Assembly: GCF_003610295.1 (NCBI RefSeq)
Contig: NZ_RAPV01000001.1
Coordinates: forward strand, 6,324,001-6,388,000
Direction: 5' to 3'
Origin: Paraburkholderia sp. BL23I1N1
Lineage (GTDB): Bacteria > Pseudomonadota > Gammaproteobacteria > Burkholderiales > Burkholderiaceae
DNA: 64,000 nt
In this document: in pieces, positions 1,197 to 24,475 of the stretch
How the letters are laid out: every line of letters begins with the position of its first letter
Position numbering within the stretch: position 1 is the first letter of the stretch
Made by a program: the position numbers and the translations under genes
The notes under the pieces: generated by a model
The model's database searches: none
What the model was told of the DNA's origin: nothing
The model's input: the letters and a program-made list of their open reading frames with translations, nothing else

Positions 1197-2252
1197 TTAC
1201 GCCGCGCGCAGCGGCAGGTTCTTCACGCCTGCCTTGCGATTCGGTGTCATGCCGTTGGCCGCGAGTGTTTCGTCGATCGTCTCGTACTGCACACCGATCT
1301 TGTAGATCTCGCGCGCTTCCTTGCCGCTCGCAATCTCGCGGCCCAGTTCGCGCGCCACGCGCACGCACTGTTCGATCTGCTGCACCGAGCTCATGCGATT
1401 GCCATGCTGGTCGATGATCGTATCCTCGATACCGCAGCGCGGGTGCAGACCCATGGACATCGCCATCATGTTGAACGGCAGGACGTTTTTCAGCAACGAC
1501 TCGGCCGTGACCGTACCGCCGTCCGGCGCACGGTGGACGAAGTTGAAGAAGTTGAACGGGTTCGGACCGTCGAAGCCACCGCCGATGCCGATCCACGTCA
1601 GGTTCAACGGCCCCTTGTAGACGCCCTTGCGCACCAGACGATCGAGCGTTTCGAGCGCATGAATACCGGTGAGCTGGAAGTGCGGCTGGATACCCGAGAC
1701 CTGCAGGCGGCGCAGGTGCTCCTCGACCCAGGCCGGACCCGCGGGCACCGTCATTTCGCTATAGGCCGCCATGAGCGCGGGATTGGCCAGCGAGGTACCT
1801 TCCAGGTACGCCGGATAGAGCAACTCCATGATGTTCATCTGCGTGGTGTTGATCGCGACCGTCACCTGATCGGGCTTCGGGTCGAGATCGGCCAGCATGT
1901 GACGCGTGTCGTCGGACAGCCACTTCGCGGCCTGGCCGTCGTCTTCCGGCGCAAACGAAATCGAGCCGCCCACCTGGATGATCATGTCCGGCACGGCCGC
2001 GCGCACGCCGGCGATCAGTTCATTGAACTTCGACAGGCGCTTTGAGCCCTTGCCGTCCAGTTCGCGCACGTGCAGGTGCAGCACGGTCGCGCCGGCGTTG
2101 TAGCAGTCGACGGCCTTCTGGATCTGCTCTTCCATCGTCACCGGAATATCTTCGGGAAAGTCTTCCGGCGCCCATTCCGGGCCGTACGGCGCGACGGTGA
2201 TGACTACCTTGTCCTGATTCTCCGGGTGCAGCGAGTCGTCGAGAAATTGCAT
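1197..2252 (-). CDS. BKACE family beta-keto acid cleavage enzyme (DUF849)
   Basis: This 351-residue protein belongs to the BKACE/Kce family. These are zinc-dependent TIM-barrel enzymes that condense a beta-keto acid with acetyl-CoA and split it into acetoacetate and a CoA thioester. The family zinc-ligand pair is visible as H59 and H61 in VLHLHVREL. A second glycine-rich loop, GIGGGFDGPNP, lies near residue 245. The ATG at 2252 has a GGAGG site 6 nt upstream, and the length is somewhat above the family's usual 270-310 residues. It is divergent from an AraC regulator and followed by an MFS transporter, which suggests a small inducible catabolic unit. The substrate cannot be read from sequence. 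Dehydrocarnitine is one known BKACE substrate, but the usual carnitine neighbours are absent. Confidence 0.88.
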   Translation of the reverse strand: MQFLDDSLHPENQDKVVITVAPYGPEWAPEDFPEDIPVTMEEQIQKAVDCYNAGATVLHLHVRELDGKGSKRLSKFNELIAGVRAAVPDMIIQVGGSISFAPEDDGQAAKWLSDDTRHMLADLDPKPDQVTVAINTTQMNIMELLYPAYLEGTSLANPALMAAYSEMTVPAGPAWVEEHLRRLQVSGIQPHFQLTGIHALETLDRLVRKGVYKGPLNLTWIGIGGGFDGPNPFNFFNFVHRAPDGGTVTAESLLKNVLPFNMMAMSMGLHPRCGIEDTIIDQHGNRMSSVQQIEQCVRVARELGREIASGKEAREIYKIGVQYETIDETLAANGMTPNRKAGVKNLPLRAA

Positions 2253-2483: not shown

Positions 2484-3485
2484 ATGCAAAGCATGGTGAG
2501 ATCGTCAACGTTGCGCGGGTATTTCGACGTTGCGAGAGGCCTGGGCCTCAACCCGTACGAGCTCGTGCAGGAAGTCGGTCTCGACGCTGTGACGCTGGCG
2601 AACCCCGATGAGCGGATCCCGGCGGACGGCGCCTGCCGCCTGCTCGAAGTGACGGCGGAGAAGGCGTCGTGTGCGACGCTCGGGTTGCAGATCGCGCAGA
2701 CCCGCCAGCAGTTCGGCAGTGGCGTCGTCAACGTTCTGCTCGCCCACAAGCGCACGCTCCGCGAGGTGCTGCTGGCCGCCGCGCAGTACCGCTATCTGCT
2801 CAACGAAGCGCTGGGTGTCTACGTCGAAACGACCGGCGACACGGTAACGATCCGCGAAGAGATCGTCGCCGAACCGGGCACCCGGACCGTCCAGGCGATC
2901 GAACTGGCAGTCGGCGTGCTGTCGCGCCATTCCAGCGCGCTCCTCGGCGCCCACTGGAAACCGCACAGTGTTCACTTCACCCATTCCGCGCCGTCCGACC
3001 TCACCTTCCATCGCCGCTTCTTCGGCTGCCCGGTGGCATTCGAAAGCGACTTCAACGGATTCGTTTGTGCGGCGGCGGACCTCGACTATCCGAATCCGAA
3101 CGCGGACCCCGTACTGGTCCGTTATGCGGAAAGCCTCGCCAATCCGCTAAACGAAACAGTGGCGGATTCCATTGCGCTGGAGGTGCGCAAGACGATTTAC
3201 CTGCTCTTGCCCCTCAGTCAGGCTTCCATCGAACTGGTGGCGCGGCAACTGAATCTGACGGTGCGCACGCTGCAGCGCCAGCTTGATTCAGCCAGTTCCA
3301 GTTTCTCGGGCATCGTTGAAGAAGTGCGGCGTGATCTTGCCGTGCGCTATCTGCTCAACCCACGCTATCCGATCGGGCGGGTCGCCGCCCTGTTGGGCTA
3401 CACCAACCAGGGAGCATTTACGGTCTGGTTCCAGAAGCGTTTTGGACTGACACCCCGCGACTGGCGCAGCCGCCACCGAAAGTGA
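2484..3485 (+). CDS. AraC family transcriptional regulator (arabinose-binding type N-terminus)
   Basis: This 333-residue regulator has an N-terminal effector domain of the arabinose-binding type (about residues 20-200) and a C-terminal AraC double helix-turn-helix (about residues 235-333). The second helix-turn-helix region ends in FGLTPRDWRSRHRK, typical of the family. The start is placed at 2484 because AAAGGAGACAGG precedes it. An in-frame upstream ATG at 2271 would add 71 residues that do not look like protein and would cover the intergenic palindrome. It is transcribed away from the BKACE/MFS pair, so it probably controls that pair. The second AraC gene in the window (15632) has the same length and architecture. 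Confidence 0.88.
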   Translation: MQSMVRSSTLRGYFDVARGLGLNPYELVQEVGLDAVTLANPDERIPADGACRLLEVTAEKASCATLGLQIAQTRQQFGSGVVNVLLAHKRTLREVLLAAAQYRYLLNEALGVYVETTGDTVTIREEIVAEPGTRTVQAIELAVGVLSRHSSALLGAHWKPHSVHFTHSAPSDLTFHRRFFGCPVAFESDFNGFVCAAADLDYPNPNADPVLVRYAESLANPLNETVADSIALEVRKTIYLLLPLSQASIELVARQLNLTVRTLQRQLDSASSSFSGIVEEVRRDLAVRYLLNPRYPIGRVAALLGYTNQGAFTVWFQKRFGLTPRDWRSRHRK

Positions 3486-3638: not shown

Positions 3639-3887
3639 ATGCAAAACGATGTGAGTTCTTTGCGCAGGTTGATCGACAAGTGGCTTGGCCACTGTTGCGA
3701 CGGGACTGTCCAGGTGATCGGGTTCAGCCGCACATCGTCGAATCGGCGCCGCTACATACGCGTCGGCGTAGGCCATAGCGATAGTTTCCTGGCTATTACT
3801 TTCTTCCGGCATGGCGACGGTTCGTGGAACGTGTATCCACCGAGGCGGGAAGCACCCATGATGGGCACGTCCAGTTTCGCGGCATGA
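3639..3887 (+). CDS. Small hypothetical protein, 82 aa
   Basis: This is a small ORF with a good ribosome site (AAGGGAGAG) 6-8 nt before the ATG at 3639. The product is basic in its first half (SSNRRRYIRVGVG) and contains an aromatic stretch, AITFFRHGDGSWNVYPP, that reads like the edge strands of a small beta fold. I do not recognise a named family, although short proteins of this general appearance are common in Burkholderia. It lies alone between the AraC gene and the phaJ promoter element, and is preceded by the palindrome at 3565. Function unknown. Confidence 0.5.
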   Translation: MQNDVSSLRRLIDKWLGHCCDGTVQVIGFSRTSSNRRRYIRVGVGHSDSFLAITFFRHGDGSWNVYPPRREAPMMGTSSFAA

Positions 3888-3941
3888 CCGCATCGGGCCT
3901 GACAAGTTTGCGCATCGCGCGATTCGTCTCATTCGCAAGCC

Positions 3942-4027
3942 GTGGCCGACTTTGTCAATAGATGGGCCGATTCAGGTAGTCGATCAACGTCGAATTGAGA
4001 CTACGATCGTTTCAACGGTTATCGCGG
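3942..4027 (+). promoter_or_regulatory. 86-bp duplicated promoter element, copy A (upstream of phaJ)
   Basis: This 86-bp stretch aligns without gaps to 16732-16817, with 73 of 86 positions identical by my count. Copy A ends 64 nt before the phaJ ATG; copy B ends 62 nt before the acyl-CoA dehydrogenase ATG. Shared landmarks are TTTGTCAATAGATGGGCCGA near the left end and an imperfect dyad GTAG[TC]C-N17-GACTAC followed by GATCG. It is the probable promoter/operator of phaJ-phaC. The binding protein is unknown; the two LAL regulators and the AraC regulator nearby are candidates. Confidence 0.75.
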
Positions 4028-4091
4028 CGGCAGCGCTTCGGGAACATACAGGGTCAGTCCATCCATGCGGTAATAACGAGTTGAGCGACAG

Positions 4092-4589
4092 ATGAACGAA
4101 ATCGGCGGTTACGACATTGAAGATCTGGAAGCCGGCATGAGCGCCACTTTTGCGAAAACCATGACGGAGTCGGACATCCTGTTCTTCGCGGCCGCATCGG
4201 GCGATAACAACGCAGTCCATATTAACGAGGAATTCGCGCGCACTACCCCGTTCAAAGGGCGCATTGCGCATGGAATGCTGAGCGCAAGTGTGATTTCCGC
4301 GACCCTCGCCAGTCGGCTCCCGGGCCCCGGCACCGTCTACCTCGGACAGAACCTGCGTTTCAAGGCACCGGTCCGGCCTGGCGATACGGTGCATGCAACA
4401 GTCGCCGTGAAAGAACTGCAGCCGGAAAAGTGCCGCGTCGTGATGTCGACAGTCTGTACGGTTGAAGGAAACGTGGTGATCGACGGCGAAGCGGTCGTCA
4501 TGGTCACGTCCCGTGCGCGGCGTCTGGCTGAACGCGCGGCCAGCGCCGAACCATCCGCAAACGTGAGTCAGTCAATCGAGGCGGTGTGA
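4092..4589 (+). CDS. phaJ: MaoC-like (R)-specific enoyl-CoA hydratase
   Basis: This 165-residue single hot-dog-fold hydratase converts trans-2-enoyl-CoA from beta-oxidation to (R)-3-hydroxyacyl-CoA, the monomer for PHA synthase. The hydratase-2 motif is present as FFAAASGDNNAVHINEEFA, with the catalytic pair D38 and H43 at the usual spacing of 5. It is slightly longer than PhaJ of Aeromonas (about 134), mainly through a polar C-terminal tail rich in Ala and Ser. The stop codon overlaps the possible GTG start of phaC, so the two are cotranscribed and probably translationally coupled. Expression is expected from the 86-bp element at 3942. Confidence 0.9.
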   Translation: MNEIGGYDIEDLEAGMSATFAKTMTESDILFFAAASGDNNAVHINEEFARTTPFKGRIAHGMLSASVISATLASRLPGPGTVYLGQNLRFKAPVRPGDTVHATVAVKELQPEKCRVVMSTVCTVEGNVVIDGEAVVMVTSRARRLAERAASAEPSANVSQSIEAV

Positions 4590-4591
4590 CC

Positions 4592-6466
4592 ATGCCGTTA
4601 AACGTACCCGCTGAATATGTCCAGGGATTCATCAAGTCCGGGCAGCAGTTCTGGCACGCCCTGGCCGGTCTGGAGGCGAATGGCGATCCGCAGGACGATA
4701 CGCACACTGGCGCGGCGCCCCCGGAAGCACTAGCCGCTCCCGTGGCACTGCTCGAGGCGCACTCCGCGTACTGGCCACAGTTGGCGTCGGTTTGGACGCG
4801 AACGCTGGCCAGCACAATGGGCGCGGAAACCGAGCCCGTGATTGCCCCGAAGCGAGGCGACCGCCGCTTTCTCGCCGAAGACTGGCACAAGAATACCTGG
4901 TACAGCCTGCTCAAGCAGAGCTACCTGCTCAATGCGCGGCTGCTTGAAGATGTCGTCGACGCGGTTGTTCTAGACGAAAATGACAAACGGAAACTCGAAT
5001 TCTTCACGCGGCAGTTCATCGATGCTCTAAGCCCAGCCAATTTCGCCGCGACCAATCCCGAGGCGCTCAAGCTCGCGTTCGAATCCAGCGGCGACAGCTT
5101 GCGTGACGGCTTCGCGAATCTGCTTGCCGATCTGCAGCGCGGCACCATTTCGATCACGGACGAGACCGCTTACGAGGTCGGGCACAACGTGGCGGCGTCC
5201 CAGGGCGCGGTCGTGTTCGAGAACGATCTGTTCCAGTTGATCCAGTATGCCCCGCTCACCGACAAGGTCGCCAAACGCCCGCTGGTGATCGTGCCGCCTT
5301 GTATCAACAAGTACTACATTCTCGATCTGCAACCTGAAAATTCCTTTGTGCGTTTTGCCTGCGAACAGGGGATGACGGTGTTCATGGTGTCGTGGCGCAA
5401 CCCCGATGCCGCCATGGCGCACACGACCTGGGACGACTACGTCGAACAGGGTGCGTTGACGGCCCTCAACGTTGCGCAGGCGATCACTCGCGCCGACCGG
5501 GTCAACGCGGTGGGCTGGTGCGTGGGCGGCACCATTCTGTCATCGGCCACGGCGATCTCCCGGGCACGCGGCGACGACACGGTGGCCAGCCTCACGTTGC
5601 TCACCACGATGCTGGACTTCGAAGAACCTGGCGAGCTGGGCTTCTTCATCGACGAAGCGGGCGTCGCACAGCGCGAGGGTGCCATCGGCCGGGGCGGAAT
5701 CTACTCCGGCAAGGAACTTGGGTTCACGTTCCAGATGTTGCGGGCAAACGATCTGATCTGGCCTTACGTCATCGATAACTACCTGAAAGGCAAGTCGCCG
5801 CCGGCATTCGATCTGCTGTACTGGAACGCCGACAGCACGAATCTGCCGGGCCCCATGTACACCTGGTATTTGCGCAACATGTACCTGGAGAACAACTTGT
5901 GCAAACCGGGGCGGTTGACCGTGTGCGGCACGCCAGTCGACCTGGGACGCATCGACACCCCGACCTACGTGCTGGCAACCGAAGACGATCACATCGTGCC
6001 GTGGCGATCGGCTTATCGATCCACACAACTGGTGAAGGGGGTTAAGGGGGTTGATGGGGTTGATGGGGTTGATGGGGTTGATGGGGTTGATGGGGTTGAT
6101 GGGGTTGATGGGGTTGATGGGGTTGATGGGGTTGATGGGGTTGATGGGGTTGATGGGGTTGATGGGGTTGATGGGGTTGAGGGCCCGGCTCAGTTCGTTC
6201 TCGGCGCGAGCGGCCACATAGCGGGGGTCGTCAATCCCGCGTCGAAGAACAAGCGAAGTTTCAGGGTCGGTGGCGATTCGACCGGCGATCCGGATGCGTG
6301 GCTGGCGACGGCCGAAACACGGCCGGGCAGTTGGTGGCCCCATTGGATCGAGTGGCTGAAACCGTACGCGGGCGAATCGGTCAAGGCGCGCACGAAGCTG
6401 GGAAGCGCCCGTCATCAGCCGGTCGAACCGGCGCCCGGGCGCTATGTGAAAGTTCGCACGACATAG
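4592..6466 (+). CDS. phaC: Class I poly(3-hydroxyalkanoate) synthase with an in-frame VDG tandem repeat
   Basis: This 624-residue alpha/beta-hydrolase-fold polymerase builds PHA from (R)-3-hydroxyacyl-CoA at the granule surface. The lipase-like box GWCVGG holds the catalytic C310. D466 (EDDHIVPW) and H542 (ASGHIAG) complete the triad. In Cupriavidus necator PhaC the triad is, from memory, C319-D480-H508, so Asp and His are 28 residues apart. Here they are 76 apart, exactly 48 more, matching a 16-unit tripeptide repeat at 6041-6184 (VKG, 14 VDG, VEG). ATG 4592 is preferred because GAGG lies 10 nt upstream; GTG 4586 is the alternative and overlaps the phaJ stop. Outside the repeat the protein looks intact, including the N-terminal region starting PLNVPAEYVQGF. 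Whether the inserted loop affects activity or granule association is unknown. Confidence 0.93.
   Translation: MPLNVPAEYVQGFIKSGQQFWHALAGLEANGDPQDDTHTGAAPPEALAAPVALLEAHSAYWPQLASVWTRTLASTMGAETEPVIAPKRGDRRFLAEDWHKNTWYSLLKQSYLLNARLLEDVVDAVVLDENDKRKLEFFTRQFIDALSPANFAATNPEALKLAFESSGDSLRDGFANLLADLQRGTISITDETAYEVGHNVAASQGAVVFENDLFQLIQYAPLTDKVAKRPLVIVPPCINKYYILDLQPENSFVRFACEQGMTVFMVSWRNPDAAMAHTTWDDYVEQGALTALNVAQAITRADRVNAVGWCVGGTILSSATAISRARGDDTVASLTLLTTMLDFEEPGELGFFIDEAGVAQREGAIGRGGIYSGKELGFTFQMLRANDLIWPYVIDNYLKGKSPPAFDLLYWNADSTNLPGPMYTWYLRNMYLENNLCKPGRLTVCGTPVDLGRIDTPTYVLATEDDHIVPWRSAYRSTQLVKGVKGVDGVDGVDGVDGVDGVDGVDGVDGVDGVDGVDGVDGVDGVDGVEGPAQFVLGASGHIAGVVNPASKNKRSFRVGGDSTGDPDAWLATAETRPGSWWPHWIEWLKPYAGESVKARTKLGSARHQPVEPAPGRYVKVRTT
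6041..6184 (+). repeat. 9-bp coding tandem repeat (GTTGATGGG)n inside phaC
   Basis: Sixteen consecutive 9-bp units are present: one GTTAAGGGG, fourteen GTTGATGGG and one GTTGAGGGC, encoding VKG, VDG x14 and VEG. A degenerate GTGAAGGGG (VKG) precedes them at 6032. The near-perfect copies imply recent expansion. Unit changes keep the reading frame, so copy number can vary without inactivating phaC. The coding strand presents runs of four G separated by TTGAT. Confidence 0.97.
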
Positions 6467-15631: not shown

Positions 15632-16633
15632 ATGCATTCGCCCAGCGCCACCGTCCCGATCTCACTCGTCAACGGTTTCCTTGCCGCTGCGGGCGCACGG
15701 CCGGGCGTGGTCGGCAAATACCTGAACGAGGCCAGCATCTCCCCTGCGCTCCTCGCCGAACCGGGCGCGCGAGTCACAGAGGAACAGTTTTCCACCTTAT
15801 ACCGCGCCCTCGCGATTGAATTCGACGATGAAATGCCGGGCATCTTCGCCCGCCCGTTGCGCAGCGGCACCCTGAAATTCCTTTGCCTGAGCCTGCTCGA
15901 TGCGCCCAACCTTGAAATTGCCATGCATCGGTTCGGGCAGTTCTTTCACATCGTTCTCGATGACTTCAGGTTCGAATCGCGCCGGGACGGTTTGATCGCG
16001 TGCGTTGCCCTTCATCCTGATCCATCGTCAACGGTCAGCATGCTTGGGCAGCAGCTCATGCTCAAGCTCGCTCACGGCGTGGCATCGTGGCTGATCGGTC
16101 AGAAGATCCCCTTGCTGCAGGTCGAATTCGCGTTTTCCTGCCCACCGCACACGGTGGATCATCTGTACCTGTTTCCCGGCCCGGTTCATTTCGACTGCCA
16201 GCAAACGCAGATGCGCTTCAGCGCCGTGTATTTCGACATGCCCATTCGCCAGCGCAAGACGAATTTACGCAAGTTTCTCGCCCGGGCGCCCGAGGACTGG
16301 ATCTTTGTTTCCTTTAGCGAGCAGCTCATCAGCCATCGCATCCGGCAGTACCTCGCATCCTGTTTGCCGGACGTGCCGACCGTTGAAGACGCCGCGCGAA
16401 GTCTTCACTGCTCGGTCCGCACCTTGTGCCGCCGCCTCGCCGGCGAGGAAACCGCATTTCAGACGCTGAAGGACGAATTGCGGCGTGACATCGCGATCCA
16501 GCGTCTCACCGGCACTAGCGACCCGATCGCCGCGATCGCGGGCGATGTCGGCTTTGACGACCCCACTGCGTTTCATCGGGCCTTCCGGCACTGGACCGGC
16601 AGCACGCCTGGCGAGTATCGCCGCCACCCCTGA
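15632..16633 (+). CDS. AraC family transcriptional regulator 2
   Basis: This 333-residue regulator has the same layout as the gene at 2484: an N-terminal arabinose-binding-type domain (about 15-200) and a C-terminal AraC helix-turn-helix (about 240-333). The latter has LHCSVRTLCRRLAGEE in the first helix-turn-helix and GFDDPTAFHRAFRHWTGSTPGEYR in the second. I placed the start at ATG 15632, where conserved sequence begins; no strong ribosome site is visible, so the start is uncertain. It lies immediately upstream of the acyl-CoA dehydrogenase operon, in the same direction, separated by the 86-bp element. It is therefore a candidate controller of that operon. Confidence 0.85.
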   Translation: MHSPSATVPISLVNGFLAAAGARPGVVGKYLNEASISPALLAEPGARVTEEQFSTLYRALAIEFDDEMPGIFARPLRSGTLKFLCLSLLDAPNLEIAMHRFGQFFHIVLDDFRFESRRDGLIACVALHPDPSSTVSMLGQQLMLKLAHGVASWLIGQKIPLLQVEFAFSCPPHTVDHLYLFPGPVHFDCQQTQMRFSAVYFDMPIRQRKTNLRKFLARAPEDWIFVSFSEQLISHRIRQYLASCLPDVPTVEDAARSLHCSVRTLCRRLAGEETAFQTLKDELRRDIAIQRLTGTSDPIAAIAGDVGFDDPTAFHRAFRHWTGSTPGEYRRHP

Positions 16634-16731
16634 GCGCGCCTGCTCGCTTCGCCGGGCCATCGAACGGCAACCGGATCCGCTGACCCGCGCGATCGGGTAA
16701 ACGCGGGGCGGCGCCCCTCCGCTTCGTCAGT

Positions 16732-16817
16732 CGTGGCCGATTTTGTCAATAGATGGGCCGATTTAGGTAGCCGATTCTCGTCCGATCGGGACTACGATCG
16801 GCTCAACTGTTATCGCG
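16732..16817 (+). promoter_or_regulatory. 86-bp duplicated promoter element, copy B (upstream of acyl-CoA dehydrogenase)
   Basis: This is the partner of 3942-4027, ungapped and 73/86 identical by my count. It ends 62 nt before the acyl-CoA dehydrogenase ATG. The conserved core includes TTTGTCAATAGATGGGCCGA and the dyad half GACTAC followed by GATCG. It is the probable control region of the acyl-CoA dehydrogenase-ETF-QO-bktB operon. A short GGGGC-N3-GCCCC hairpin (16705-16717) just upstream may end the AraC transcript. Confidence 0.75.
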
Positions 16818-16879
16818 CCGGGCCACCAAGTCTGCCCTGCCCGCGTCCCCTTTCTTAGATCGCCTTTCTGGAATCCATC

Positions 16880-18682
16880 ATGAGCTATACGGCGCCCGTC
16901 AAGGACATGCTGTTTGTCATCAATGAACTTGCCCACCTCGATCGCGTGTCGGCGCTCGCCGGTTTCGAAGACGCTACGGCCGACACCGCGCAGGCGGTGC
17001 TCGACGAAGCGGCGAAGTTCAATGCGGACGTGATCGCACCGTTGAATTTCGAAGGCGATAAAAATCCGAGCACCTGGCGCGACGGCGAGGTGTACGCCAC
17101 GCCGGGCTTCAAGGACGCCTTCCGCCAGTTTGCCGAAGGCGGCTGGCAAGGCGTCGTGCATCCCGTCGAATACGGTGGCCAGGGCTTGCCTAAACTGCTG
17201 GCGACACCGTGCATCGAGATGCTGAATGCAGCAAACCTCTCGCTTGCCCTGTGCCCGCTGTTGACCGACGGCGCGATCGAGGCGCTCCTGACAGCCGGCA
17301 CTGAAGCACAGAAGCAGGCCTATGTGCCAAAGCTGATCTCCGGCGAGTGGACCGGCACGATGAACCTGACCGAACCGCAAGCCGGCTCCGATCTCGCGCT
17401 GGTACGCACACGCGCCGAGCCGCAAGGCGACGGCTCCTTCAAGCTGTTCGGCACCAAGATCTTTATCACGTGGGGCGAGCACGACATGGCGGACAACATC
17501 GTCCATCTCGTGCTGGCTCGTACACCCGATGCGCCCGAGGGCGTCAAGGGCATCTCCCTCTTTGCCGTACCGAAGTTTCTCGTCAACGAAGATGGCTCGT
17601 TGGGCGAGCGCAACGACGTACACTGCGTCTCGATCGAACACAAGCTCGGCATCAAGGCGAGCCCGACCGCGGTGCTGCAATTCGGCGACCATGGTGGCGC
17701 AATCGGTCATCTGATCGGCGAAGAGAATCGCGGCCTCGAATACATGTTCATCATGATGAACGCGGCCCGCTTTGGCGTGGGTGTGCAGGGTATCGCCGTT
17801 GCTGAACGCGCGTATCAGCAGGCCGTAGCCTACGCAAAGGATCGCGTGCAAAGCCGCCCGGTGGATGGCTCGGCGAAGCAATCGGTCACGATCATCCAGC
17901 ACCCGGACGTGCGCCGCATGCTGTCGACCATGCGCGCGCTAACCGAGGGTGCGCGTGCGCTCGCCTACGTCGCAGCCGCGCATAGCGACATCGCGCATCG
18001 CCACGCGGACGAAGCCGTGCGCGCGGAACATCAGGCGATCTACGAATTTCTCGTGCCGGTTGTGAAAGGCTGGAGCACGGAAAACTCGATCGAAGTGGCC
18101 AGCCTGGGCGTGCAGGTTCACGGCGGTATGGGCTTTATCGAGGAGACAGGCGCAGCCCAGTACTATCGCGACGCCCGCATCCTGACGATCTACGAAGGCA
18201 CCACGGCCATTCAGGCGAACGATCTGATCGGGCGCAAAACCTTGCGCGACGGCGGTGCGGTGGCGAAGACCATCCTCGCCCAGATCGATCGAACGCTGGC
18301 AGAACTGCAAGACTGTGCTTCGTTCTCCGCAAGTCCTGCGTTCCAGTCGCTGCATAAGCGGCTCACGACAGGCCGCGACGCTCTCGCGAACGTAGTGGCA
18401 TTCATGCTCGCCAATGCCAAAAGCGATCCGAATGCGGTATTTGCCGGTGGCGTGCCTTACCTGAAGCTGGCCGGCATCGTACTGGCAGGCTGGCAATTTG
18501 CACGCGCCCTGCTGGTGGCTGCTAAGAAACACACTGAAGACAAATCGTTCTACGACTCGAAGATCGCAACGGCTCACTTCTTTGCCGATCACATCCTGCC
18601 CCAGGCCGTCGCGCTTGAGGCCTCCATTGTCAGCGCGAAGAACAACGAAGGCATGTTGGCGCTGAGCGAAGATCAGTTCTAG
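16880..18682 (+). CDS. Acyl-CoA dehydrogenase (large, DmdC-like subfamily)
   Basis: This 600-residue FAD enzyme carries out the first oxidation of beta-oxidation, acyl-CoA to trans-2-enoyl-CoA. The N-terminal helical, middle beta and C-terminal helical acyl-CoA dehydrogenase domains occupy about 35-460. An extra C-terminal domain (about 465-595) is typical of the long Burkholderiales/DmdC-like forms. Signature segments are NLTEPQAGSDL and, near 445, YEGTTAIQANDLIGRKTL, whose Glu is in the position of the catalytic base. It heads an operon with ETF-QO (16-nt gap) and bktB. The product is the substrate of PhaJ, encoded 12 kb away behind the same promoter element. Chain-length specificity cannot be judged. 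Confidence 0.92.
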   Translation: MSYTAPVKDMLFVINELAHLDRVSALAGFEDATADTAQAVLDEAAKFNADVIAPLNFEGDKNPSTWRDGEVYATPGFKDAFRQFAEGGWQGVVHPVEYGGQGLPKLLATPCIEMLNAANLSLALCPLLTDGAIEALLTAGTEAQKQAYVPKLISGEWTGTMNLTEPQAGSDLALVRTRAEPQGDGSFKLFGTKIFITWGEHDMADNIVHLVLARTPDAPEGVKGISLFAVPKFLVNEDGSLGERNDVHCVSIEHKLGIKASPTAVLQFGDHGGAIGHLIGEENRGLEYMFIMMNAARFGVGVQGIAVAERAYQQAVAYAKDRVQSRPVDGSAKQSVTIIQHPDVRRMLSTMRALTEGARALAYVAAAHSDIAHRHADEAVRAEHQAIYEFLVPVVKGWSTENSIEVASLGVQVHGGMGFIEETGAAQYYRDARILTIYEGTTAIQANDLIGRKTLRDGGAVAKTILAQIDRTLAELQDCASFSASPAFQSLHKRLTTGRDALANVVAFMLANAKSDPNAVFAGGVPYLKLAGIVLAGWQFARALLVAAKKHTEDKSFYDSKIATAHFFADHILPQAVALEASIVSAKNNEGMLALSEDQF

Positions 18683-18698
18683 GAAGAGGCATCGCATC

Positions 18699-20372
18699 GT
18701 GACAGACGCAAGTCTCATTGAGCAATACGGTCCACGCGAGTCGATGGAATACGACGTCGTGATCGTCGGCGGCGGCCCGGCAGGCCTCGCCGCAGCGATC
18801 CGCCTGAAGCAGCTGGCGGCTGAACAAGGCGCTGAAACAAGCGTGTGCGTACTGGAAAAAGGCTCGGAGATCGGGGCGCATATCCTGTCGGGCGCGGTGA
18901 TGGATCCGCGCGCGATCACCGAACTGATCCCCGACTGGAAGGAAAAAGGCGCGCCGCTGACGGTCGACGTGACCGAAGACAGGTTCCTCTTCCTCACCGA
19001 AACCGGCTCGAAGAGCGTGCCGACCTGGGCGTTGCCGGACAACTTCAAGAACCACGGCAACTATGTGATCAGCCTCGCGAATGTCACGCGCTGGCTGGGT
19101 CAGCAGGCGGAAGCCCTGGGCGTCGAAATCTTCCCGGGCTTTCCGGCTGCCGAGATTCTGTACAACGACGATGGCTCGGTTAAAGGCGTCGCCACCGGCA
19201 ATCTGGGTATCGGCAAGGACGGCGAGCCGACCGAAAACTTCCAGCTCGGCATGGAGTTGCACGCGAAGTACACGCTCTTCTGCGAAGGCGCGCGTGGGCA
19301 CCTCGGCCGTCAACTAAACGACAGATTCAAGCTGCGCGACGGCGTCGATCCGCAGGTGTACGGCATCGGCATCAAGGAACTGTGGGAAATCGATCCGTCG
19401 AAGCACAAGCCGGGTCTGGTGATGCACACCGCCGGCTGGCCGCTGGAAAACGACACCTACGGCGGTTCGTTCCTCTATCACATGGACAACAACCAGGTGG
19501 TGGTGGGCTTCGTGGTAGGCCTCGGCTACACGAACCCGTACCTGTCGCCCTTCGAGGAATTCCAGCGCTACAAGACGCATCCGGCGATCCGCGCGGTGCT
19601 CGAAGGCGGCAAGCGGGTGTCGTACGGCGCGCGGGCGATTACCGCGGGCGGCCTGATGTCGCTGCCGAAGCTGGTGTTCCCGGGTGGCGCGCTGGTGGGC
19701 GACGATGCGGGCTTCCTGAACGCATCTCGGATCAAGGGTTCGCACGCGGCGATCAAGACCGGGATGCTGGCGGCCGAAGTGGCATTCGACGCGGTGCAGG
19801 CGGGACGCACCAGCGATGAACTCACGGCCTATCCGGAGTCATTCAAGACCTCGTGGCTGCACACCGAACTGCATCGTGCGCGCAATTTCAAGCAGTGGAT
19901 GAGCAAGGGTCTGTACCTCGGCACGCTGATGGTGGGCATTGAGCAGAAGCTGCTGGGCGGCAACGTGCCCTGGACGCTGCATCACCAGCATTCCGATCAC
20001 GAGATGCTGAAACCCGCTTCGCAGAGCAAACAGATTGTCTATCCGAAGCCGGATGGCAAGCTGACGTTTGACCGGCTCTCCTCCGTGTTCATCTCGAACA
20101 CCAACCATGAAGAGAATCAGCCGGCTCATCTGACACTGAAAGATCCGTCGGTGCCGGTGAGCGTGAACTGGCAGACGTACGCCGGTCCGGAGTCACGCTA
20201 TTGCCCGGCTGCGGTGTACGAGTTCGTGAAGAACGACGACGGCAGCGAGCGGCTGGTGATCAACGCGCAGAACTGCGTGCACTGCAAGACCTGCGATATC
20301 AAGGATCCGACGCAGAACATCGTGTGGGTCACGCCCGAGGGCGGTGGTGGGCCGAACTATTCAAACATGTGA
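18699..20372 (+). CDS. Electron transfer flavoprotein-ubiquinone oxidoreductase
   Basis: This 557-residue membrane-associated FeS flavoprotein passes electrons from ETF, reduced by acyl-CoA dehydrogenases, to ubiquinone. An N-terminal FAD-binding motif, DVVIVGGGPAGLAAAI, lies at about residues 19-34. A C-terminal 4Fe-4S ferredoxin-like domain carries cysteines in YCPAAVYE and CVHCKTCDIKDP. The start is GTG 18699, with GGAAGAGG upstream in the 16-nt gap after the acyl-CoA dehydrogenase stop. A dedicated copy next to its acyl-CoA dehydrogenase gives this operon its own electron outlet. The ETF alpha and beta subunits are not encoded in the window. Confidence 0.94.
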   Translation: MTDASLIEQYGPRESMEYDVVIVGGGPAGLAAAIRLKQLAAEQGAETSVCVLEKGSEIGAHILSGAVMDPRAITELIPDWKEKGAPLTVDVTEDRFLFLTETGSKSVPTWALPDNFKNHGNYVISLANVTRWLGQQAEALGVEIFPGFPAAEILYNDDGSVKGVATGNLGIGKDGEPTENFQLGMELHAKYTLFCEGARGHLGRQLNDRFKLRDGVDPQVYGIGIKELWEIDPSKHKPGLVMHTAGWPLENDTYGGSFLYHMDNNQVVVGFVVGLGYTNPYLSPFEEFQRYKTHPAIRAVLEGGKRVSYGARAITAGGLMSLPKLVFPGGALVGDDAGFLNASRIKGSHAAIKTGMLAAEVAFDAVQAGRTSDELTAYPESFKTSWLHTELHRARNFKQWMSKGLYLGTLMVGIEQKLLGGNVPWTLHHQHSDHEMLKPASQSKQIVYPKPDGKLTFDRLSSVFISNTNHEENQPAHLTLKDPSVPVSVNWQTYAGPESRYCPAAVYEFVKNDDGSERLVINAQNCVHCKTCDIKDPTQNIVWVTPEGGGGPNYSNM

Positions 20373-20434: not shown

Positions 20435-21622
20435 GTGCAAAGAGAAGTCGTTATTGTGAGTGGTGTGCGCACCGCCATTGGCAAGTTCGGTGGAAGCCTG
20501 AAAGACGTACCGCCAACGGAGCTTGCAGCACTGGTAGTGCGCGAGGTATTGGCGCGGGCCCAGCTTGCCGGCGACCAGGTGGGACACGTTGTTTTCGGCA
20601 ATGTCATTGCGACCGAACCCAAAGACATGTACATGGCGCGTGTGGCCGCCATTAACGGCGGTGTCTCCGAGGCAGCGCCGGCACTAACCGTGAACCGCCT
20701 GTGCGGTTCCGGATTGCAGGCCATCATCTCCGCCGCGCAAACCATTCTGCTCGGTGACGCCGACGTCGCCATTGGCGGCGGCGCGGAAAACATGAGCCGC
20801 GCGCCTTACGTGACACCCGACACACGCTTTGGCGTACGAATGGGTGATGCACGTCTGATCGACATGATGCTGGGCGCGCTGAACGACCCCTTCCATACGG
20901 TTCCGATGGGGATCACCGCAGAAAATGTCGCCCAGAAATATGGCATCACGCGCGAGCAGCAGGATGCATTGGCGGTGGAATCGCACCGTCGGGCAGCGCG
21001 CGCGATCGCCGAAGGGCGCTTCAAGGAGCAGATCGTTCCTGTGGTGCGTCGAGTCAAGGGGAAAGACGTGTCGTTCGACACGGACGAACACGTGCGTCCG
21101 GACGTCTCCCTCGACGACCTTTCCGGTATGCGACCCGCTTTCCAGAAGACCGGTGGCACCGTGACGGCAGCCAACGCATCCGGTATCAATGACGCTGCCG
21201 CCGCCGTCCTGATGATGGAGCGCGGTGCTGCCGAACAACGCGGGCTCAAGCCGCTGGCCCGCCTCGTGTCCTACGCTCATGCCGGCGTGGATCCGCTCTA
21301 CATGGGCATCGGTCCCGTGCCGGCCACGCGCATCGCGCTTGAACGCGCGGGCCTGGATATTCAGGACATCGACGTGATCGAGGCGAACGAAGCGTTCGCC
21401 GCGCAAGCCTGCGCCGTCGCCCAGGAGCTCAAGCTCGACGCCGACAAGGTAAATCCCAACGGGTCCGGCATTTCCCTGGGTCATCCGATCGGCGCAACGG
21501 GCGCGTTGATCACCGTCAAGGCTATCCACGAACTGAAGCGTATTAACGGCCGCTTCGCGCTGGTGACCATGTGCATCGGTGGCGGTCAGGGTATCGCGGC
21601 TATTTTCGAAAATCTTCAATAG
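20435..21622 (+). CDS. bktB: Beta-ketothiolase, BktB type
   Basis: This 395-residue thiolase II condenses acetyl-CoA with acetyl-, propionyl- or longer acyl-CoA, or cleaves 3-ketoacyl-CoA. The catalytic residues fall at C90 (NRLCGSG), H350 (GHPIGATG) and C380 (MCIGGGQG), the positions I recall for BktB of Cupriavidus necator. Overall wording (REVVIVSGVRTAIGKFGG, EANEAFAAQACAV) is also BktB-like rather than PhaA-like. AAGGAGTGCAAC precedes the ATG. It is the last gene of the acyl-CoA dehydrogenase operon, followed by a hairpin. It may supply C5 or longer monomers for PHA, or complete beta-oxidation. No 3-ketoacyl-CoA reductase or hydroxyacyl-CoA dehydrogenase lies nearby. Confidence 0.9.
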   Translation: MQREVVIVSGVRTAIGKFGGSLKDVPPTELAALVVREVLARAQLAGDQVGHVVFGNVIATEPKDMYMARVAAINGGVSEAAPALTVNRLCGSGLQAIISAAQTILLGDADVAIGGGAENMSRAPYVTPDTRFGVRMGDARLIDMMLGALNDPFHTVPMGITAENVAQKYGITREQQDALAVESHRRAARAIAEGRFKEQIVPVVRRVKGKDVSFDTDEHVRPDVSLDDLSGMRPAFQKTGGTVTAANASGINDAAAAVLMMERGAAEQRGLKPLARLVSYAHAGVDPLYMGIGPVPATRIALERAGLDIQDIDVIEANEAFAAQACAVAQELKLDADKVNPNGSGISLGHPIGATGALITVKAIHELKRINGRFALVTMCIGGGQGIAAIFENLQ

Positions 21623-21773: not shown

Positions 21774-21811
21774 GCCCCTCGCGAATGCGAAGCATCAAGG
21801 CGATCTTCACG

Positions 21812-24475
21812 ATGGAACTCACCCTCAAGATCAGTCCACCGCGAACCTCGCGGCACATGCTTGCCCGCACGCGCCTGAGCTCGGGCAGCGAGCGCTTTCG
21901 TGACCGGCCAGTGGCGATCGTACAGGCACCGCCAGGCTTCGGCAAAACCTCGCTCCTGGTGCAATGGCGCCACGAGCATTTGATGCGGGGCTGCGTAGTC
22001 GCGTGGCTCTCGCTCGACGCACGCGACGGTCCGAGGCGTCTGTTCGTGGACCTGACGCTTGCCGTGCGCGCGGGCTCCGGGCGGGCAGCATTCGGCAAAC
22101 ACCTGCTCGAAGGCGGCGCGGCGCCCGATGCGCCGCTCGACGCGATCACGGCCTGGCTGGCCGAGGTCGCGCGCACGGCATTCGATATCGTTCTGATACT
22201 CGACGAAGTAGAAGCGCTTGCGCAGGCGAGCCACGAAGCGCTGGTTTACCTGTTCGAGCACCTGCCCGCCAATCTGCGCGTCGTACTTGCCTCGCGCGGC
22301 GGATACGACAGGCTTATCGCGCGCCTGATCCCCTATGGCCTGTGCACGGCGGTCGACGCCGCCACGCTTCGCTTTCGCCTCGACGAAACCCTCTCGCTGC
22401 TCGGCAATCGGTTTGGCACCGATGTCGATGCCGACACGAGCGCAAGATTGCACGACCTTACGGAGGGCTGGCCGCTCGGCCTGCAACTCGCGCTCGACAC
22501 GATCGTCGATTCGCACGATCCGGTCGCGGGCATCCACGCTTTCGAGAGCAGCACCGGCGACGTCCCGAAACGGTTCGTGAATGCGCTTTTTGAGAGGCTC
22601 GACAGCGACGACACCCATTTCCTCACGCTCGTCTCGATCGTCGACCTGCTGCACGGGGACCTTTGCACTGCGCTCTCAGGATTTCCCGATGCAAGGCAAC
22701 GGTTACAGCGCCTGGCGGCCGAGACCCCGCTTCTTTGCAACGCGCAGGGTCGCAGCGGTTGGTACCGGCTGCACGCCATGGCGCGCGAGGTGCTGCGCGA
22801 ACGCCTCGCCGATCTACCTCACGACGGGCTGACTCGCTTGCATTTGTGTGCCATGCACTGGCTGGCCGACAATGGCATGACCGAGGCGGCAGCGCGGCAC
22901 GCATTGGCGTGTGGCGAGGAGGAGACTGCCTATCGGCTCGCGCAACGAAGCCTGCATGAAGCCGTGACCCAGGGCCGCCTTGTTGACGTGGCCGGGTGGC
23001 ACGAATGGCTGCCTGAAGCGGTGCTGGAACGGCATCCGCAATTGCGCCTCGCCATCGCATGGGCACTCGCCATGAGCGACCGGCACCAGGACGCCGAGGC
23101 ACAAGCTCGAGCCATACTGGCGAGCACGCAGCCAGACGAGGCGACACGCTATGAAATCGATCTGATTCTAAGCGCCGCCGCGTATTTCGCCGACGATCCC
23201 GATCGCGCAGGATTCCTGATGGACAAATGGGGCGACACGTCTCCGGTAGGCGACGCGTGGCTGCAACAGGTACACGCAAACCGGCTTGCCGCTCGGGCGC
23301 TCATGAACGGCGATTACGCGGCGGCCCGTGGATTGCAGCGGCGCGCTCTGCATGGAAAAACCAGTGCCGCCTGTCGATACGTGAGTCAATGGCGTGACTA
23401 CATGACCGGCCTCGGGTATCTGTTCGAAGGGCAAATGCTGCTAGCGGAACGCACACTGCGCCCGGCGCTCGAACGTGCCGACACGGAGCTGGGCCGGCGG
23501 CACCCGTTTTCCTGCATCATCGCCGCACTTCTCGCCACGACCCGATTCAAACGAGGCGACTTCGCGGAAGCGACGTCCATGCTCGCAAACCGCCTCGACG
23601 TGCTCGAACGCCGGGGCACGCCCGACGCCGTGATCCTCGCATACCGCACAGCGGCGCGCATCGCGGTCGCGGCGGGTATGGAGCACCGCGCCGTCGACCT
23701 GCTTGGCACGCTGGATGCCATCGGCGCCATGCGCGAGATGCCGAGGCTGCGCGTGGCAAGCTTGACGGAGCAGATCCGCTTGCACAGTGGCCGCTTCCGT
23801 TCCGCCACATGCCAGACACTTGTCCGGCAACTCGACCGAATCGTCGCGAGGCACGCGGTATCCGATGCGCCCGTTACACATCGCACCCTGGTCTTGCATC
23901 AGGAGATTAGCCACGCTTACGCGGCTATCGCCGCTCAGGACTGGCGTACGGCCGGGCACGCGCTCAGTCGCGCGCAACGGGGCGCCGAAGAGATCAGCCT
24001 TGGTGCGGCGCGCGTCGATATCATGACGTTGCGCGCCTTTGTTCTGGATCGCGCCGGGGAATCGGCTACCGCGCTGCTGCGTGAGGCCGTGTGCCTCGGA
24101 GCGGCGTGCGGGATGAAGCTGGTGCCTATCGACCTGCATCCCGCCATCGCTCTCTGGATAGACGCAGCCGACGGCGCAGTGCGCCTTGCTTCGTCTCCTG
24201 AACCGCCATTGTCGACCGTGACCACAACACCGGCGCCCGAGCGTCGTGATAGCCTGCGCGCGACCCCCAGCACGGCCTTGACACCGAAGGAGCGTCACGT
24301 GCTGGAACTGGTTACCCGCCACCTCACCAATAAAGAAATCGCACTCGCCATGGGGATTGGCCAGGAGAAGGTGAAGTGGCATCTGAAGAACCTCTTCATC
24401 AAGCTCGACGCAACGTCGCGCAAACAGATTGTTTGCCGGGCTCAGCTTATGGGCCTGCTGCAAGAAGCCGCCTGA
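21812..24475 (+). CDS. LAL-type (MalT-like) LuxR family transcriptional activator 2
   Basis: This 887-residue paralog of the regulator at 10832 has the same layout. Walker A is APPGFGKTSLL (about 39-49) and Walker B is VLILDEVEAL (about 127-136). A helical-repeat sensor region (about 330-790) follows, then a C-terminal LuxR helix-turn-helix starting LTPKERHVLELV with VKWHLKNLF in the recognition part. ATG 21812 (MELTLK) is chosen because of the promoter just upstream and the AAGG site; ATG 21785 would add nine residues. It sits between bktB and porin 2 on the same strand. It likely activates porin 2 and possibly the lipid genes, responding to an unknown ligand or nucleotide-bound effector. 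Confidence 0.88.
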   Translation: MELTLKISPPRTSRHMLARTRLSSGSERFRDRPVAIVQAPPGFGKTSLLVQWRHEHLMRGCVVAWLSLDARDGPRRLFVDLTLAVRAGSGRAAFGKHLLEGGAAPDAPLDAITAWLAEVARTAFDIVLILDEVEALAQASHEALVYLFEHLPANLRVVLASRGGYDRLIARLIPYGLCTAVDAATLRFRLDETLSLLGNRFGTDVDADTSARLHDLTEGWPLGLQLALDTIVDSHDPVAGIHAFESSTGDVPKRFVNALFERLDSDDTHFLTLVSIVDLLHGDLCTALSGFPDARQRLQRLAAETPLLCNAQGRSGWYRLHAMAREVLRERLADLPHDGLTRLHLCAMHWLADNGMTEAAARHALACGEEETAYRLAQRSLHEAVTQGRLVDVAGWHEWLPEAVLERHPQLRLAIAWALAMSDRHQDAEAQARAILASTQPDEATRYEIDLILSAAAYFADDPDRAGFLMDKWGDTSPVGDAWLQQVHANRLAARALMNGDYAAARGLQRRALHGKTSAACRYVSQWRDYMTGLGYLFEGQMLLAERTLRPALERADTELGRRHPFSCIIAALLATTRFKRGDFAEATSMLANRLDVLERRGTPDAVILAYRTAARIAVAAGMEHRAVDLLGTLDAIGAMREMPRLRVASLTEQIRLHSGRFRSATCQTLVRQLDRIVARHAVSDAPVTHRTLVLHQEISHAYAAIAAQDWRTAGHALSRAQRGAEEISLGAARVDIMTLRAFVLDRAGESATALLREAVCLGAACGMKLVPIDLHPAIALWIDAADGAVRLASSPEPPLSTVTTTPAPERRDSLRATPSTALTPKERHVLELVTRHLTNKEIALAMGIGQEKVKWHLKNLFIKLDATSRKQIVCRAQLMGLLQEAA

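Follow-up and report, generated by a model that had tools for sequence, protein, structure and literature searches.

A direct-repeat promoter element shared by phaJ-phaC and an acyl-CoA dehydrogenase operon in Paraburkholderia, with the AraC-type regulator AraC2 as its probable activator

The DNA analysed is a 64,000-nucleotide stretch of Paraburkholderia sp. BL23I1N1 (contig NZ_RAPV01000001.1, positions 6,324,001 to 6,388,000; hereafter the window). It carries a phaJ-phaC operon and a beta-oxidation operon, each behind a copy of the same promoter element, together with two AraC-type regulator genes:

4092..4589, plus strand: PhaJ-like R-specific enoyl-CoA hydratase with a MaoC domain, phaJ (Pfam)
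4586..6466, plus strand: class I PHA synthase, phaC (NCBIfam TIGR01838, above cut-off)
16880..18682, plus strand: acyl-CoA dehydrogenase (ACAD), first gene of the beta-oxidation operon (Pfam)
18699..20372, plus strand: ETF-ubiquinone oxidoreductase, ETFQO (Pfam)
20435..21622, plus strand: beta-ketothiolase BktB (NCBIfam NF042999, above cut-off)
15632..16633, plus strand: AraC2, AraC-type regulator (PF12625 and HTH_18), proposed activator of both elements (Pfam, co-occurrence, conserved position before the ACAD promoter)
2484..3485, plus strand: AraC1, a further AraC-type gene directly before the phaJ element; it shares about 24% identity with AraC2 and is not likely to be the shared regulator

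The start of AraC2 was picked from the conserved N-terminus of its orthologues, which are 97 and 95% identical in P. haematera and P. domus, and the protein carries the C-terminal double helix-turn-helix AraC domain. Two genes for LAL (MalT-like LuxR) regulators, LAL1 and LAL2, sit between or beside the two operons. LAL2 (21785-24475) may be the last gene of the ACAD operon and belong to the regulon, because in one relative (G386, L122 15849-18692) the element stands directly before the LAL2 orthologue; at that locus the ACAD operon is absent and an AraC2 remnant lies alongside. A BKACE (beta-keto acid cleavage enzyme) gene (1197-2252, minus strand), at least 90% identical in many relatives, is a frequent neighbour of AraC1 and also neighbours AraC2 in several Cupriavidus loci. 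Within phaC, a 9-bp tandem repeat (6040-6183) adds about 48 residues (KGVKGVDGVDG...VEG) as an in-frame expansion, and the PhaC proteins of nine relatives (578-580 residues) have no tandem-repeat insert there.

A repeat search of the window returned an ungapped 99-nt pair (3932-4030 and 16723-16821, 83% identical), within which the original prediction for this DNA had described two 86-bp copies of a shared promoter. The gapless alignment and the first copy (3942-4027) hold; the partner, placed at 16732-16817, where just 17 of 86 positions match, in fact lies one base later, at 16733-16818, with 72 of 86 positions identical in register (73 had been counted), and the copies end 64 nt before the phaJ ATG, as proposed, and 61 nt, not 62, before that of ACAD. 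When the 99-nt sequence was used as a BLAST query against the whole genome (9.12 Mb, four contigs), the two copies were retrieved with E=1.2e-45 and 8.9e-23 and the next match with 0.78, so that the repeat is not due to chance; the genome-wide search proposed with the prediction thus gives two copies. The flanks are unrelated within the window, as claimed. The downstream edge is nevertheless not a functional boundary, since in several relatives the similarity continues through the ACAD leader into the ACAD coding sequence.

The second copy was used as seed against 299 Burkholderiaceae genomes, and further promoters were taken from fetched AraC2 orthologue loci. The seed search matched 17 other genomes in two other genera, always upstream of an ACAD orthologue (in three loci that end at a contig edge, ACAD is seen by its first 31 to 62 residues alone). 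The 36 ACAD promoters that were lined up share one layout: GTGGCCnGATTTGTCA, 5 nt, TGGnCCGGTTTGGACA, 23 nt (22 in four promoters) and TACGAT or TAGGAT. The half-sites are 16-nt direct repeats of the TGGCC-N5-TGTCA type, 21 bp apart, and in the window they correspond to the following features:

3942..3957, plus strand: half-site 1 of the phaJ-phaC operator (GTGGCCGACTTTGTCA), column conservation 0.98 in 11 phaJ promoters against 0.54 upstream, and repeat register
3963..3978, plus strand: half-site 2 of the phaJ-phaC operator, direct repeat 21 bp from half-site 1 (conservation 0.93, 21-bp self-similarity)
3979..3984, plus strand: would-be -35 position of the phaJ promoter, 17 nt before the -10 box and abutting half-site 2, a poor match to consensus with an inferred role
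4002..4007, plus strand: predicted -10 box of the phaJ promoter, TACGAT (spacing rule of 22 or 23 nt after the operator)
16733..16748, plus strand: half-site 1 of the ACAD operator (ACAD promoter line-up, repeat register)
16754..16769, plus strand: half-site 2 of the ACAD operator (ACAD promoter line-up, repeat register)
16793..16798, plus strand: predicted -10 box of the ACAD promoter, TACGAT (line-up, repeat register, -10 spacing)

The identity between the two window copies is concentrated in the operator and the -10 box (half-site 1, 15/16; spacer, 5/5; half-site 2, 15/16; 23-nt gap, 15/23; -10 box, 6/6; following 23 nt, 19/23; rest of the leader, 13/61). Direct-repeat symmetry was measured on 114 distinct sites with a PWM score of at least 25: half-site identity at a shift of 21 is 0.60 against 0.26 expected, a value reached in none of 3000 column permutations, and the next best self-similarity is 0.45, at a shift of 20. 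With further loci added, the set grew to 139 distinct sites, over which the best inverted symmetry is 0.53. The spacing to the -10 box was measured with a 37-nt operator PWM that leaves out the -10 box, on 105 distinct operators that all differ from the training rows. In 97 of the 105, a -10-like hexamer from a set of seven follows the operator at 22 or 23 nt (81 times at 23 nt, 16 times at 22 nt); one more lies at 24 nt, and none occurs at any other distance between 5 and 49 nt. As 17 nt separate the -35 position from the -10 box, the -35 position abuts half-site 2; the region 3850-4100 around the phaJ copy contains no sigma70-type hexamer pair.

AraC-family class II promoters have direct-repeat half-sites, the proximal one at a weak -35. 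The same arrangement is found here, with half-sites about two helical turns apart, the proximal one abutting a weak -35, and a fixed distance to the -10 box, and, judged by its sequence, the element is an activator-type promoter in AraC-family class II form. The original prediction had not recognised it as a sigma54 site, and a sigma54 promoter was rejected: the consensus TGGYA-N7/8-WTGC has no match in either promoter region, and the bare GG-N10-GC occurs once, in the ACAD copy. Variations on the layout were seen in other loci, namely an additional TGGCC-N5-TGTC-like half-site about 20 nt past the -10 box (L051, L053 and L055) and, in three Cupriavidus loci (L230, L231 and L247), a reverse half-site pair about 53-55 nt before the forward element and without a -10 box, which might act as an additional site in looping or autoregulation.

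We built a model, R1, from the 36 ACAD promoters of other genomes, excluding the window copies. In the window's genome it retrieves the ACAD promoter (E=1.6e-11) and, as second best match, the phaJ copy (E=4.0e-9), followed by a third match at 0.35; the predicted regulon of this genome thus consists of two promoters. Among 144 Paraburkholderia genomes, R1 (E<=0.001) identified 142 sites in 85, of which 81 follow AraC2 at a distance of 37-370 nt, 21 (in as many genomes) precede a phaJ orthologue by 83-247 nt and 40 lie elsewhere. These 40 were classed by reading gene maps and coordinates, and 32 precede genes of acyl-CoA oxidation (13 bktB, nine ACAD, one of them cut by a contig end, four 3-hydroxyacyl-CoA dehydrogenase, three ETFQO and three EtfB); bktB behind the element is often accompanied by a 3-hydroxyacyl-CoA dehydrogenase gene. 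The remaining sites comprise the one before LAL2, two before bktB remnants, three unclear ones and two at contig ends. Outside this survey, three loci (from a C. basilensis, a Rhodoferax-labelled MAG and 'Burkholderiaceae bacterium 16') have a back-to-back site facing a divergent acyl-CoA ligase gene, 23 nt from a TAGAAT. The operator scan of AraC2-orthologue loci took in 28 of 70 loci. Since the sites precede genes of oxidation and electron transfer and also phaJ, the regulon seems to comprise acyl-CoA oxidation, electron transfer and, repeatedly, PhaJ-PhaC.

That the element is a mobile or dispersed repeat, placed near these genes by chance, could be suspected from its two copies and their sharp downstream edge in the window, and the original prediction would have fallen with a widespread repeat unrelated to genes. 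The distribution refutes this reading, to which we give practically no weight: two copies were found in 9.1 Mb, and in the relatives the element occupies a promoter position, with genes of related function downstream at most of the classified sites.

The prediction had left the regulator among the two LAL and the AraC genes, and AraC2 is the one that tracks the element. With an AraC2 threshold of E<=1e-110 (93 of the 144 genomes), 84 genomes have both AraC2 and the element, nine AraC2 only, one the element only and 50 neither, numbers that are inflated, as are those for AraC1, by shared ancestry and by linkage, 81 of the 142 sites being next to AraC2. The operator therefore occurs with AraC2 in 84 of 85 genomes, the single exception being 85% complete, and of the 56 sites that lie over 3 kb away from AraC2, all but one are in AraC2-positive genomes (55 of 56). 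The ACAD promoter retains its operator where AraC2 is distant (1.1 Mb in G141 and 70 kb in G252), which makes action in trans plausible. From this pattern, AraC2 (15632-16633) is most likely the shared regulator. An AraC2 orthologue (61%) also adjoins ACAD (66%) in Pseudoxanthomonas sangjuensis, labelled a gammaproteobacterium (L268); the site search of that locus found no element, and horizontal transfer or a contaminated assembly is suggested.

AraC1 adjoins the phaJ element in the window and in seven further loci (L117, L118, L141, L143, L145, L147 and L154), and it also correlates with the element (E<=1e-80; 64 genomes with both, 12 with AraC1 only, 21 with the element only and 47 with neither, out of 144). 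This correlation is weaker than that of AraC2, as AraC1 is absent from 21 of the 85 element genomes, against one for AraC2, and the element is absent from 12 of 76 AraC1 genomes, against nine of 93 AraC2 genomes. In L119, L122, L124 and L126 the phaJ element is kept and no AraC1 match was found in the mapped stretch, a homologue or fragment lying elsewhere in the genome. Given also its low identity to AraC2, we rejected AraC1 as the shared regulator and consider this alternative quite unlikely. A role for LAL1 or LAL2 in binding the element is less probable still, at the level of a few chances in a hundred: a 21-bp direct repeat is the form of AraC-family sites, and LAL homologues (E<=1e-150) do not occur wherever the element does, being found in 29 of 144 genomes, 25 of 85 with the element and nine of 21 with a phaJ element, for which they were rejected. 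The points in favour of LAL are the location of the two genes by the operons, the element before LAL2 in G386 and the activation of hexanoate genes in C. necator by the LuxR-family protein H16_B1342 (PMC12285253). AraC2 thus remains the preferred candidate, and the proposal of one shared promoter under one regulator is strongly supported by the comparison of genomes, the architecture being conserved across genera, tracking AraC2 and having recruited phaJ-phaC in several arrangements.

In 11 genomes, including that of the window (group A), the element and phaJ-phaC precede the ACAD element by 3.7 to 12.8 kb, with AraC2 in between, except in G386, where AraC2 and its element are on a separate contig. 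We compared the phaJ leaders of the window and its ten relatives with ACAD (that of L122 with the window's ACAD, since its own lies elsewhere). In seven of the 11 (L117-L122 and L127) the leader aligns with ACAD coding sequence over up to 92 nt; in L124 a match of 21 nt alone may be chance, and the leaders of the window, L125 and L126 contain no such stub. In G383 and G364 an internal gap of about 160 nt precedes the ACAD coding piece. These stubs indicate that the group-A phaJ promoter is a duplicated ACAD promoter, which explains the long similarity between the window copies; the window's own phaJ copy has lost its stub. A promoter duplicated together with a coding stub is a clean case of a regulon gaining a member. 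In G329 (L127 13821-14048) phaC matches over just 12% of its length behind phaJ, and most of the synthase gene is apparently lost; the phaJ element is kept there, at 33 bits.

The 86-bp length is, on this comparison, largely inherited from the promoter duplication, and about 66 bp (two half-sites and the -10 box) are conserved as architecture. We accordingly rejected 86 bp as a unit of function, and also a constraint on the similar distances to the ATG, as the element lies anywhere between 83 and 247 nt before phaJ in 21 genomes. Since the likeness of the window copies is partly due to recent descent, it is in itself no proof of selection, and the copies could be a recent duplication only, with the phaJ copy a relic that has no regulatory role. 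The coding remnants do show that the copy arose by duplication, and the leader behind it is still conserved. Over the 11 group-A phaJ promoters, conservation is 0.98 in half-site 1, 0.93 in half-site 2, 0.98 in the spacer, 0.86 in the 23-nt stretch, 0.95 in the -10 box, 0.87 in the 20 nt after it, 0.80 in the leader and 0.96 at the phaJ start, against 0.54 on the upstream side. Because the leader is fairly conserved (0.80 to 0.87), the footprint is sharp and its contrast clear only upstream, and it is modest downstream. Nevertheless, the half-sites and the -10 box are kept where the upstream sequence has diverged, and the element recurs before phaJ in a second group of genomes and before a distantly related MaoC-PhaC pair, so a relic seems very unlikely.

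That second group (group C, ten genomes) has the element 97-110 nt before phaJ, with quite a different sequence and the same layout in those of its rows that can be read in register. In a further group (group B, nine mapped genomes), AraC2, the element and ACAD are followed by phaJ-phaC on the same strand, with EtfB between in eight; the elements of two of these loci (L193 and L194) come from R1 matches, as the PWM map does not contain them. G351 has the element before EtfB and phaJ-phaC behind. Among the Cupriavidus-labelled loci, an element-led ACAD has a phaC match behind it in 10 of 12, and by Pfam domains the gene order in one of them (L231) is ACAD, MaoC, PhaC, phasin and hydrolase, while in G286 ACAD is missing and the element immediately precedes a MaoC-PhaC pair. 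The MaoC-PhaC pair of Cupriavidus and G286 is only distantly related to the window's phaJ-phaC. These several gene arrangements with phaJ-phaC under the element lend strong support to the proposed tie between the production of enoyl-CoA and its capture by PhaJ. Of a total of 63 phaJ matches, 21 have the element at most 400 nt away, nine come after an element-led ACAD, 31 could not be tied to an element in the loci inspected, and the other two are those of G351 and of G310, which has a weak element alone. G136 and G157 carry AraC2 and a phaJ (85-87% identical) with no element at phaJ, G207 carries phaJ and AraC2 with no element at threshold, and P. xenovorans LB400 has a weak site alone, before ACAD (18.8 bits). 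The coupling is therefore common, not universal.

Our explanation, which we regard as highly probable as a whole, is that AraC2 binds both elements and activates both operons, the phaJ copy having come from duplication of the ACAD promoter. An AraC2 dimer would bind the two direct-repeat half-sites, 21 bp apart and on one face of the DNA, where the promoter has a poor -35 and TACGAT as its -10 box, with transcription expected to start about 7 nt after that box. As the proximal half-site abuts the -35 position, AraC2 would recruit RNA polymerase by class II activation. AraC2 would turn on ACAD-ETFQO-bktB and phaJ-phaC in the presence of an inducer, which is probably a medium-chain fatty acid or the corresponding CoA ester. 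PhaJ could then hydrate the enoyl-CoA made by the dehydrogenase, and PhaC could store the product. In this group of Paraburkholderia the phaJ promoter arose when the ACAD promoter was duplicated together with the 5' end of its gene.

Promoters of this kind are well known. Those of araBAD and XylS-Pm (AraC/XylS, class II) likewise have 21-bp direct-repeat half-sites, the proximal one at the -35, a weak -35 and a regulator with a double helix-turn-helix, and differ from the promoters described here in half-site sequence and in their targets, here beta-oxidation and PHA synthesis, binding and ligand being predicted in our case. PsrA, FadR-type regulators and PhaR make fatty-acid oxidation or PHA synthesis responsive to metabolite levels, through palindromic sites that are relieved by acyl-CoA or polymer. 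They are set apart by these descriptions, belonging to other protein families, whereas the site here is a direct repeat of activator type. PsrA is in fact listed as a regulator of fatty-acid or PHA genes in the same source that describes PhbR of Azotobacter vinelandii, an AraC-family activator of phbBAC (PMC9049629). PhbR is the nearest match in the literature listed, being, like the proposed AraC2, an AraC-family activator of PHA synthesis genes; it is distinguished, by its description, in that it controls phbBAC, whereas the predicted AraC2 regulon joins ACAD, ETF, ETFQO and thiolase with phaJ-phaC. Among the matches listed, no title, abstract or passage names an activator of PHA synthesis from fatty acids in Paraburkholderia or Cupriavidus, and no paper describes an AraC2-type regulator by title or abstract; within these matches, the regulon and its regulator were not found described.

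The only expression data found come from C. pinatubonensis JMP134, in which a fadE-phaJ-phaC2-phaP-phaZ operon was described as co-transcribed (PMC4636328). On octanoate its phaC2 transcript was about 240-fold above that of phaC1, a figure from another genus that compares two genes and not induced with uninduced cells, and on meta-nitrophenol about 70-fold below (PMC4636328); the word 'AraC' is absent from the main text of that article. In strain HN-2 of the same species, from which we read the element, the expression data being those of JMP134, ACAD and matches to MaoC and PhaC follow AraC2 (66%) and the element (R1 E=1.8e-4). The JMP134 operon resembles the element-led loci in this gene order, shared with HN-2, and its phaC2 dominates over phaC1 on octanoate; it differs from the window, where phaJ-phaC and ACAD are separate operons, PhaC is of class I and MaoC is distantly related. 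From the octanoate expression we infer that a medium-chain fatty acid or its CoA ester is the likeliest class of inducer.

On a wider scale, we find it rather likely, with less confidence than in the explanation for the window, that an acyl-responsive AraC activator governs a 'storage-coupled beta-oxidation' regulon across Burkholderiaceae, into which two distant PHA synthase lineages were recruited several separate times, the coupling having been repeatedly selected. The recruited modules would be PhaJ with class I PhaC, and MaoC with PhaC2, and the routes of recruitment would be a position further down the ACAD cluster, a duplicated ACAD promoter that carries a piece of its gene, and loss of genes between the promoter and phaJ. 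The analysis yields a candidate gene with an exact predicted operator, the probable class of inducer and a predicted regulon of ACAD, ETF, ETFQO, thiolase and PhaJ-PhaC. If the proposal is true, the promoter would be a fatty-acid-responsive part for bioplastic engineering, and a single activator would set the share of enoyl-CoA that these bacteria burn and the share that they store.
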